This document shows positions 3,470 to 6,156 of a stretch of 64,000 nt of DNA, piece by piece. Source of the stretch: Holdemania sp. Marseille-P2844 (GTDB taxonomy: Bacteria > Bacillota_I > Bacilli_A > Erysipelotrichales > Erysipelotrichaceae); the NCBI RefSeq assembly GCF_900120005.1, contig NZ_LT635450.1, positions 184,996 through 248,995 on the forward strand, in the 5' to 3' direction. Position 1 is the first letter of the stretch, and every line of letters begins with the position of its first letter. The position numbers and the translations under genes are program-made. The notes under the pieces were generated by a model that was given only the letters and a program-made list of their open reading frames with translations, was not told where the DNA came from and did not search any database.

Positions 3470-3498
3470 TTGAACAAACACGGAAAGTCGCATACAAT
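3470..3498 (+). promoter_or_regulatory. Promoter of the TetM-like gene, implying a leaderless transcript
   Basis: TTGAAC at 3470-3475 and TACAAT at 3493-3498 are separated by 17 bases, close to the sigma-A consensus. The start codon at 3505 begins only 6 bases after the -10 box, so the expected transcription start coincides with the A of ATG. No Shine-Dalgarno sequence precedes the ATG. Confidence 0.65.
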
Positions 3499-3504
3499 TT
3501 TTCT

Positions 3505-6087
3505 ATGAAACAGATTATTTTAGGCGCGCTGGCGCATGTCGACGCCGGCAAGACAACCTTGTCGGAAAGTCTTCTTTATCAATCCAATCAAATCCGGAAG
3601 CGCGGCCGCGTCGATCATCAGGATACCGTCCTCGATTATGACGATCAGGAACGCAGCCGGGGTATTACGATCTTTTTAAAGCAGGCGATGTTCCCGTGGA
3701 AGCAAACCGAATTCACACTGCTGGACACGCCCGGCCATATCGACTTCAGCGCGGAAATGGAGCGCACGCTGCAGGTGCTGGACTACGCGATCGTGCTGAT
3801 CAGCGGCATCGACGGCGTGCAGGCGCATACGCATACGATCTGGAAGCTGTTGGAAACCTATCATGTCCCGGCGTTTGTGTTCGTCAACAAGATGGATATT
3901 GCTTACGATGACGCGGCGGCGCTGATGACTTCGCTGCAAACCCAGCTTGATCCGCGGATTATCGACTTTACGCAGGTGGACGGGCAGATGGAAAACATCG
4001 CGATGCAGCGCGACGATCTGCTGGAAAGCTATCTTAAGCAGGGGACGCTGACCCCTTCCCAGATCCAGAGCGCGGTCGCTGACCGCTCGCTTTTTCCCTG
4101 TTATTTCGGCTCCGCGCTGAAAGCGGACGGCGTGGAAGCGCTGTTGGACGGACTGGACGCCTACACCGCAATGAAAAGCTATCCGGAAACCTTCGGAGCC
4201 CGAGTTTACAAAGTTTCCCGCGACCGCCAGGGCACGCGCTTGACGCATGTCAAAGTTACCGGCGGTGTTTTAAAGGCCAAACAGGTGCTGGACAACGGTG
4301 AAAAGGTCGATCAGCTGCGGCTGTACTCCGGCGAGCAGTTCACCATGGTCAATGAGGTTCCGGCTGGTCAGGTTTGTTGCCTGAAAGGACCGATGAAATT
4401 AGGGATTCATGACGGATTGGGATTTGAGCAGCCCGCTCGGACGCCGGTGCTTTCCGCCTGTCTGAGCTACAGCCTGATCCCGCCGGCGGGCTGCGATCCG
4501 TTTGCGTTATATCGTCAGCTCAAGCAGCTAGAGGAAGAAGATCCCCAGCTGCATCTGCAATTTCACGCGCCGACGCAGGAAATCCGCATTCAGATCATGG
4601 GCAACGTTCAGATTGAGATCTTGAAACAGCTGATCGCCAGCCGGTTTCACCTGGACGTGGAGTTCGACGAAGGAAAAATCAATTACAAAGAAACGATCTG
4701 CACGCCGGTGGAAGGCGTCGGTCATTACGAGCCGCTGCGCCATTACGCCGAGGTGCATCTGTTGCTTGAACCGCTGCCGCCCGGCTCTGGGGTGCAGGTG
4801 ACTTCCGACTGCCCGGTCGATTGGTTAGCGCTGCCGTGGCAGAAAATGGTGCTGAACTGTCTGGATGAAATCGAAGTTCCCGGCGTATTAACCGGCTCGC
4901 CGATCACCGATATCAAAATCACGCTGATCGCCGGGAAAGCGCACATCAAACATACCGAAGGCGGCGACTTCCGCCAGGCCACGCTTCGGGCGCTGCGTCA
5001 GGGTTTGCGCAGGACAACCTGCCAGCTGCTGGAGCCGGTCTATCAGTTCCGCATGGAGCTGCCCGCCGGTCAGCTGAGCCGTGCGCTGTTCGATCTGCAG
5101 CGGATGCAGGCGCAGTCGGCAATCACGCAGAATCAGACCGACACGGTAATTCTGGAAGGCACGGCCCCAGTTGCCAAAATGCGCAATTACCAAGCCGAGC
5201 TGACCGCTTATACCCATGGCTTAGGCCGGCTGGTCTGCACGTTTCAAGGTTATCAGCCCTGCGCCGATCAACAGGCACTGATCGAAGCGATCGGCTACGA
5301 CTGCGACGGCGATCTCGACTTCCCTGCGGATTCCGTTTTCTGCAGCCACGGCGCAGGATTTCTTGTGCGCTACGACGAAGTTGAGGAACACATGCATATC
5401 GAAGCTCAATGGCATCCGCAGAAAGTGGAGACAGTCGATTCCGGTTATCATCATAACCGCTATACCGTCGACGACGCCGAGCTGAAACGTGTCATGGAAC
5501 GTACGCACAAGCCGAAGGAAAAAGTGGCGGTACGCGCTCCGGTCAAGCGCAAGGAAATGCCGGAACATATTGAAATCCAGCGGCAGAAGCCCAAGACGAA
5601 ATGTCTGTTAGTCGATGGTTACAATATGATTCATTCGTGGAGTGAGCTTGTTGTGCTGGCCCGGGAAGATCTGTCCGCAGCCCGCGATCAGCTGATCCAG
5701 CTGCTTTCCAGCTTCCAGGGAACCCGCACCGGAATTCTGATTCTGGTCTTCGACGCGTATCAGGTCAAGGATAATCCCGGCTCAATTCAGAAGCTGCATA
5801 ACCTGTACGTCGTCTACACGAAAACCTCGCAGACGGCCGATTCCTACATCGAAAAAGCCACGCATCAGCTCGCCGACCAGTTTGAGGTTACCGTCGCAAC
5901 TTCCGATGGGATGGAACAGCTGATCATCATGGGGCAGGGCGCGATGCGCCTCAGCTCACGCGAGCTGGAAGTCCAGGTCCAGCAGCTCCGTCATCAACAT
6001 CGCAAACAGGAACGGGAAAATCTTGAACCCCACCGCCCGCTGAAAGAACTCAAAACCCTGCTTTCTGATCCCGAAGACGATCAGTAA
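3505..6087 (+). CDS. TetM/EF-G-like ribosome-binding GTPase fused to a YacP/Rae1-type NYN nuclease domain
   Basis: An 860-residue fusion. Residues 1-650 follow tetracycline ribosomal protection proteins and EF-G: G1 AHVDAGKTT (10-18), RGITI, DTPGHIDF and NKMD, then domains II to V. After a basic linker, residues 699-840 form a NYN (PIN-like) domain with DGYNMI (D704, N707), VFD, TADSYIEKA and ATSDGMEQ. This matches YacP/Rae1, the B. subtilis nuclease that cuts mRNA in the ribosomal A site. Plain TetM proteins are about 640 residues and lack this domain. The family suggests binding to the A site with GTP hydrolysis; coupling that to mRNA cleavage is inference. A role in tetracycline resistance, or as a housekeeping rescue factor, cannot be decided from sequence. 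The promoter sits directly before the ATG with no ribosome binding site. Confidence 0.88.
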   Translation: MKQIILGALAHVDAGKTTLSESLLYQSNQIRKRGRVDHQDTVLDYDDQERSRGITIFLKQAMFPWKQTEFTLLDTPGHIDFSAEMERTLQVLDYAIVLISGIDGVQAHTHTIWKLLETYHVPAFVFVNKMDIAYDDAAALMTSLQTQLDPRIIDFTQVDGQMENIAMQRDDLLESYLKQGTLTPSQIQSAVADRSLFPCYFGSALKADGVEALLDGLDAYTAMKSYPETFGARVYKVSRDRQGTRLTHVKVTGGVLKAKQVLDNGEKVDQLRLYSGEQFTMVNEVPAGQVCCLKGPMKLGIHDGLGFEQPARTPVLSACLSYSLIPPAGCDPFALYRQLKQLEEEDPQLHLQFHAPTQEIRIQIMGNVQIEILKQLIASRFHLDVEFDEGKINYKETICTPVEGVGHYEPLRHYAEVHLLLEPLPPGSGVQVTSDCPVDWLALPWQKMVLNCLDEIEVPGVLTGSPITDIKITLIAGKAHIKHTEGGDFRQATLRALRQGLRRTTCQLLEPVYQFRMELPAGQLSRALFDLQRMQAQSAITQNQTDTVILEGTAPVAKMRNYQAELTAYTHGLGRLVCTFQGYQPCADQQALIEAIGYDCDGDLDFPADSVFCSHGAGFLVRYDEVEEHMHIEAQWHPQKVETVDSGYHHNRYTVDDAELKRVMERTHKPKEKVAVRAPVKRKEMPEHIEIQRQKPKTKCLLVDGYNMIHSWSELVVLAREDLSAARDQLIQLLSSFQGTRTGILILVFDAYQVKDNPGSIQKLHNLYVVYTKTSQTADSYIEKATHQLADQFEVTVATSDGMEQLIIMGQGAMRLSSRELEVQVQQLRHQHRKQERENLEPHRPLKELKTLLSDPEDDQ

Positions 6088-6122
6088 ACTCAATGTAAAA
6101 ACTTCCGACACATAAAAAAAGC

Positions 6123-6156
6123 GCAGGCTCTAAAAGTCTGTGTTTTCTTTGTTTTT
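6123..6156. terminator. Terminator between two convergent genes
   Basis: GCAGGCT (6123-6129) pairs with AGTCTGT (6135-6141), including G-U pairs, and a T-rich tract follows at 6142-6156. It lies between the plus-strand GTPase gene and the minus-strand lipoprotein gene. Confidence 0.5.

Follow-up and report, generated by a model that had tools for sequence, protein, structure and literature searches.

A candidate ribosome-directed mRNA nuclease in Holdemania: fusion of an EF-G/Tet-related GTPase to a Rae1-type NYN domain

Introduction

The nucleases that act on mRNA in stalled bacterial ribosomes, and the way in which they are recruited, are still being worked out, and the list of these enzymes has been called incomplete (PMC12320835). 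In the stretch of DNA analyzed here, a window of 64,000 nucleotides from Holdemania sp. Marseille-P2844 (contig NZ_LT635450.1), a single gene encodes a translational GTPase extended by an NYN domain of the Rae1/YacP type. Does this protein protect the ribosome from tetracycline, or does it bring a nuclease to the ribosome? An architecture combining Tet with a YacP-like NYN domain was reported in ten Clostridiales species by Atkinson 2015, who suggested that it mediates antibiotic resistance through RNase activity (PMC4342817). Both the fusion architecture and the resistance-by-RNase idea have therefore been known since 2015. We did not find the fusion stated elsewhere than in PMC4342817, in a search that stopped short of the main Rae1 papers; Condon 2018 may treat fused forms. 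What is new here is the placement of the GTPase outside the Tet proteins, the fit of two trees to a single fusion, the near-exclusion between fused and free Rae1, and the invariant residues and purifying selection of both halves.

Results

Layout of the gene and of the encoded protein

The features of the gene are given below, with residue numbers referring to the predicted protein.

3505..6087, + strand: gene for the fusion of a GTPase, a linker, and a Rae1/YacP NYN nuclease (ATG start, open reading frame of 860 aa)
3514..4167, + strand: G domain, residues 4-221 (Pfam GTP_EFTU, E 1.5e-50; G1-G5 and PGH [His78] intact in the alignment)
4198..4668, + strand: domains II and III, residues 232-388 (Pfam EFG_III above and EF-G_D2 below the cut-off; EF-G fold in the model)
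4672..5013, + strand: domain IV, residues 390-503 (Pfam EFG_IV, E 2.7e-15)
4933..4977, + strand: domain IV tip loop III GKAHIKHTEGGDFRQ, residues 477-491 (alignment; Lys482 at the position of TetM Pro509)
5023..5271, + strand: domain V, residues 507-589 (Pfam EFG_C, E 5.6e-16)
5272..5400, + strand: family-specific tail, residues 590-632 (common to unfused relatives, missing from Tet and EF-G rows)
5401..5595, + strand: linker of 65 residues, 633-697 (mostly of low confidence in the model)
5467..5508, + strand: helical motif of the linker, residues 655-668, consensus I-S-D-E-E-L-x-R-I-F-x-R-T-Y (fusions only)
5596..6030, + strand: Rae1/YacP NYN nuclease domain, residues 698-842 (Pfam; sequence and structure match to Rae1)
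5614-5616, 5623-5625, 5752-5754, 5839-5841, and 5905-5907, + strand: codons of NYN residues Asp704, Asn707, Asp750, Asp779, and Asp801, respectively

Pfam placed GTP_EFTU at residues 4-221, EFG_III at 322-388, EFG_IV at 390-503, EFG_C at 507-589, and NYN_YacP at 701-842. Domain II was covered by an NCBIfam match and by the structure model despite the score of EF-G_D2 (residues 232-296), which was below the Pfam cut-off (19.9 versus 27 bits). All the GTPase motifs claimed by the initial annotation were indeed intact in the alignment (AHVDAGKTT, RGITI, DTPGH, NKMD, and GSA), and the histidine of PGH was present in 39/39 fusions. By its G1-G5 motifs and its domains I to V, the protein is a translational GTPase of the EF-G/Tet superfamily. 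The same fusion occurs in Holdemania filiformis DSM 12042 (97% protein identity) and in H. massiliensis (88%), indicating that it is no sequencing accident. A relative from a Monoglobus record carries the annotation "translation factor GTPase family protein."

The model of the whole fusion had a mean pLDDT of 83.5 and a pTM of 0.63, with confident GTPase and NYN parts. The linker was of low confidence except for a helix (residues 657-668), and the placement of the nuclease relative to the GTPase is therefore not fixed by the model. Within the linker motif, E659 was conserved in 36 of the 39 fusions, I/V663 in 38, and T667 in 33. The Foldseek rows shown for the whole model were of EF-G/EF-2 types plus one TetM, none of them being Rae1, and the NYN domain was therefore modeled separately.

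The nuclease half is of the Rae1 type

NYN_YacP matched the fusion with an E value of 1.3e-44 (152.5 bits versus a Pfam cut-off of 24.6), and the sequence of the NYN half matched B. subtilis Rae1 (5mq8/5mq9) with an E value of 1.1e-23. Modeled alone from an alignment (A3) of 20 fused and 5 free rows, the NYN part (pLDDT 89.9) superimposed on 5mq8 and 5mq9 with Z scores of 17.8 and 20.0, respectively, the latter over 135 residues at 1.9 Å, versus a Z score of 9.0 for the next non-Rae1 row. Two other alignments, A1 and A2, each take in 35/39 fusions. The Pfam domains and the Rae1 sequence and structure matches together bear out the GTPase-Rae1/YacP fusion seen by the initial annotation. That annotation had also pointed to D704, N707, and further acidic residues of the NYN domain, and the conservation check found D704, N707, D750, D779, and D801 invariant in 41/41 fused and 27/27 free Rae1 rows of the alignment, as well as in all of the 39 fusions aligned for the GTPase motifs. 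Variation of these acidic residues, on which the annotation would have fallen, was thus not observed. From the alignment with 5mq9, we take these five residues to be catalytic. The NYN half is, judged by fold and conserved residues, an active-looking Rae1-type nuclease.

The GTPase half lies outside the Tet proteins

Curated NCBI models for Tet proteins scored the fusion far below their cut-offs (393.8 versus 775 for tet_protect and 291.1 versus 1100 bits for tet_protect_M_W). Pro509 of TetM has been placed in the tetracycline site (review PMC8161019). The corresponding residue was Pro in 4/4 Tet rows, versus Lys in 38/39 fusions (Lys482 in the window's protein) and in 19/19 unfused relatives, a count from which the divergent unfused row L162 is excluded. 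The tip loops GHFEPLRHYAEVHL and KHTEGGDFR were common to the 39 fusions and the 19 unfused relatives and differed from their counterparts in the rows of Tet (4) and EF-G (2). A quick tree of the GTPase was built from 56 rows, including 30 of the 39 fusions and only 4 Tet rows; in it, all 30 fusions formed one clade with a support of 100 and were joined with the 19 unfused relatives at 99. The 4 Tet rows formed their own clade at 100, apart from the fusions, with a long-branch warning attached to the join of Tet and EF-G. L162 branched outside the group of fusions and unfused relatives, on a long branch, and the second unfused copy of genome G617 was not among the rows. Thus, scores, loops, and tree place the GTPase of the fusion not with the Tet proteins but in a family of its own, related to EF-G and Tet, of which unfused members occur as well. 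The claim that the protein has domains II to V of ribosomal protection proteins stands for the fold but not for the Tet-specific tip loop.

An ordinary Tet ribosomal protection protein, 639 aa long and containing YSPVSTPADFR, is encoded elsewhere in the source genome (L135, 5703-7622, - strand). A role of the fusion in tetracycline resistance was rejected on the tip loop, the model scores, the tree, and this separate Tet gene.

Unfused GTPases were searched for with a profile of domains IV and V plus the tail in 80 chosen genomes, comprising 5 controls, 48 genomes with free Rae1, 12 Clostridia without Rae1, and 15 Rae1-less genomes of the order of the source organism. They were detected (E of about 3e-60 or better) in 18 of the 48 genomes with free Rae1 (including a doubtful case, G887), in 2 of the 12 Rae1-less Clostridia, and in none of the 15 genomes of the same order. 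Because 30 of the 48 genomes with free Rae1 lacked such a GTPase in this profile search and 2 of the 12 Rae1-less Clostridia had one, neither half strictly needs the other. Strict codependence of the GTPase and Rae1 was rejected on the same grounds, the GTPase being found without Rae1 and Rae1 without the GTPase. Two genomes of 2.3 Mb called 98-99% complete (G226 and G315) gave no candidate EF-G-like domain, an unexpected outcome for a universal factor, perhaps owing to masked or mislabeled data.

Fused and free Rae1 rarely coexist

The only NYN_YacP match in the source genome was the fusion, and a single Rae1, in fused form, was likewise found in 4/4 other genomes (H. filiformis, H. massiliensis, and two Clostridia metagenome-assembled genomes). 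In a draw of 394 genomes from the class of the source organism, NYN_YacP exceeded the cut-off in 43, with one copy in each; the reading frame was of at least 823 aa in 41 of these, the exceptions being G053 (615 aa) and G238 (160 aa). No NYN_YacP match at all was found in 348 of the 394 genomes, indicating that many lineages can dispense with the function. A draw from the phylum gave 39 matching genomes out of 392, largely the same as those of the class.

Among Clostridia, NYN_YacP exceeded the cut-off in 249 of 393 genomes. Among the 150 rows listed, of 250 matching genomes, 65 matches were of free length, 80 of fused length, and 5 in between. Five genomes had more than one match, but inspection left G795 as the sole one in which a complete fusion stands beside a complete free Rae1. 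Under independence of the two forms, the 150 rows listed predict 13.4 genomes carrying both (P = 1.3e-6, kinship being ignored); the exclusion is confounded by kinship, since one lineage-wide replacement after one fusion event would give the same counts. Coexistence of the fusion with free Rae1 is very rare, at 1 genome out of the 249 that have Rae1. This near-absence of coexistence and the lack of another Rae1 in the source genome make the fusion appear to be the cell's Rae1, in place of the free form.

Origin and variants of the fusion

In a tree of 68 NYN domains, 41 fused rows were split from 27 free rows at 98, with one exception. Together, the GTPase and NYN trees look like the outcome of a single fusion event. 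The exception was the free Rae1 of G720 (L067), which grouped with the fused rows at 86; an unfused GTPase is encoded elsewhere in that genome (L160), and this Rae1 may represent a pre-fusion or re-split state. In comparison with H. massiliensis, dN/dS values were 0.063 for the GTPase, 0.052 for the NYN domain, and 0.177 for the linker, so that both halves are, by this measure, under purifying selection.

Two variants were observed. The 615-aa protein of G053 (L081, 4846-6690, - strand) lacks domains IV and V and keeps the G domain, the NYN residues, and the linker motif, whose helix is thus retained even in this deletion form. G905, from the same genus, has a full-length fusion, and the deletion is therefore a single case. 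In G238 (L080, 6443-9015, + strand), the two halves lie in overlapping frames in an A-rich stretch, which may be due to a slip in sequencing, a frameshift, or a genuine split of the gene. Two fusion rows (L072 and L101) carry a start codon set too late.

Flanking signals and neighborhood

The following signals flank the gene.

3470..3498, + strand: candidate promoter TTGAAC-17-TACAAT (pattern scan, consensus match only; the -10 box ends 6 nt before the ATG)
6118..6146, + strand: terminator-like hairpin and T tract (pattern scan; 3 such sites in the region versus 3.5 expected)

The terminator-like hairpin is weak, given the number of such sites expected. No Shine-Dalgarno sequence was found upstream of the ATG (positions 3470-3507), which, with the location of the -10 box, suggests that the mRNA may be leaderless. 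The same layout was observed for 6 of 19 fusion genes of the order (the gene of the window plus L002, L003, L078, L082, and L083), three of which are Holdemania-like, leaving about three lineages; a lenient control returned 18 of 211 open reading frames, the six included.

No neighbor family was widely shared across the 39 fusion loci, the commonest other family being present at 7 of them, and an operon or defense context was rejected on this ground. At the same 39 loci, there was no resistance neighborhood and there were no conserved neighbors pointing to ribosome rescue. Spread by phages was also rejected, since no fusion was present among the 80 viral-contig loci kept of 95 relatives. The best two viral loci matched residues 1-633 at 44% identity, at contig starts and without the NYN half, and the query ranges listed for the other 78 stop short of the NYN domain.

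Discussion

We propose that the fusion is a GTPase-borne sole Rae1, in which a translational GTPase brings Rae1 to ribosomes that are stalled or have a vacant A site, for mRNA cleavage, and we give this reading a probability of roughly 0.6. A ribosome-directed mRNA nuclease is the most economical reading, because Rae1 of B. subtilis is reported to attack A-site mRNA (PMC12320835) and has been proposed to enter stalled ribosomes at that site (PMC10100781). A screen for EF-P suppressors placed Rae1 and an rRNA methyltransferase homolog in the same pathway (PMC6613710). The proposal is supported by the presence of one fused Rae1 per genome, the single origin suggested by the trees, the invariant active sites, the low dN/dS values, and the Rae1 fold. 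Counting against it are G795 with both forms, the unfused GTPases, the 348 of 394 genomes without a match, and the absence of rescue-related neighbors. For the fusion itself, we infer ribosome dependence, GTP coupling, and the site of cleavage from sequence.

Mechanistically, the GTP form of the GTPase half would bind ribosomes with an empty or stalled A site, as EF-G and Tet proteins do, and the tethered nuclease would then reach mRNA lying in the A site or next to it and cut it there. GTP hydrolysis would free or reset the protein, and the truncated message would be left for tmRNA rescue and decay. Since the A site has no room for domain IV and the nuclease at once, cutting would have to take place before domain IV settles, after its withdrawal, or at the mRNA entry side. 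The single genome in which the G domain and nuclease are kept without domains IV and V (G053) counts against a requirement for domain IV. A more specific version of the proposal, in which the GTPase senses an empty or blocked A site, positions its own nuclease, and takes the place of free Rae1 in cutting mRNA as a general step of rescue in the order of the source organism and in many Clostridia, is one that we advance tentatively, the odds being somewhat against it.

The two halves may instead exert two functions on one chain, an EF-G-like factor acting in rescue, recycling, or drug tolerance being linked to an independent Rae1, so that the fusion would fix only stoichiometry or proximity to the ribosome without any GTP-gated cutting. 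What speaks most against a strictly joint function is the unfused GTPase family, which has the same tip loops and occurs both beside free Rae1 and, in two Clostridia, without any Rae1. Free Rae1, for its part, functions without such a GTPase in B. subtilis. The linker evolves faster than either domain, which speaks for this explanation, but its helix motif is conserved across the fused clade. The fusion has, moreover, been stable over 39 aligned loci in two broad groups; apart from these, a split gene in G238 and an internal deletion in G053 were observed. Except in G795, free Rae1 has not been retained beside the fusion. We consider two independent functions rather unlikely.

A tetracycline ribosomal protection protein in which an added RNase aids resistance, as suggested for this architecture in PMC4342817, would account for the shared overall fold and for the identity of about 31% to TetM and TetO. 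The TetM-like, antibiotic-response reading of the initial annotation is not supported: Lys replaces TetM Pro509, the tip loops differ, the Tet models score far under their cut-offs, and the fusions form a separate clade. The source genome has its own Tet gene, and in a family draw of 57 genomes the fusion was also present in 4 of the 5 that had a Tet-like match of 643-647 aa. With no resistance neighborhood and no fusion among the viral contig matches, this explanation is most improbable. Ribosome assembly or processing of rRNA or tRNA, with a BipA/EF-G-like GTPase acting on subunits and the NYN domain trimming the RNA, is very unlikely as well. Maturation of rRNA and tRNA was the role first put forward for NYN domains (quoted in PMC4342817), and rae1 of B. 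subtilis is cotranscribed with an rRNA methyltransferase gene (PMC6613710). However, Rae1, the closest characterized relative, is described as a translation-dependent mRNA nuclease (PMC6613710, PMC10100781, and PMC12320835), and in the structure comparison the nuclease half scores far higher against Rae1 than against other PIN folds.

The natural joining of Rae1 to a translational GTPase suggests that both act on the same ribosome, and it allows GTP state and cutting to be studied within one protein. As the only Rae1 in the genomes of many gut bacteria, the fusion points to a putative GTP-driven message-cutting machine on stuck ribosomes. Correcting the tetracycline-resistance reading also matters, since that reading would cause too many resistance genes to be counted in gut bacteria.

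Comparison with known systems

The fusion resembles Tet(M) and Tet(O) (PDB 3j9y and 4v6v) as a five-domain GTPase with a loop I that is short relative to that of EF-G and with DFR after loop III, but it differs from them by Lys482, its two tip loops, the extra tail and NYN domain, and its separate clade. With EF-G, it shares the domain order, the overall fold (Foldseek E 7.2e-53), and His480 at the tip, whereas it lacks the long glycine-rich loop I, has another loop III, and carries the appended NYN domain. The unfused GTPases of Clostridia (618-724 aa in the rows examined) have the same tip loops and the same tail and form the sister group of the fusions; their sequences stop near the position of fusion residue 632 and have neither the linker motif nor the NYN domain. 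Rae1/YacP of B. subtilis (PDB 5mq8 and 5mq9) corresponds to the whole NYN domain, with the same invariant Asp and Asn residues, but is a free protein of about 170-190 aa instead of the C-terminal part of an 860-aa GTPase. The Tet-NYN proteins of Atkinson 2015 (PMC4342817) have the same architecture as the fusion. They were filed in the Tet subfamily and tied to resistance, whereas the fusion is placed here outside the Tet clade and appears to replace free Rae1.
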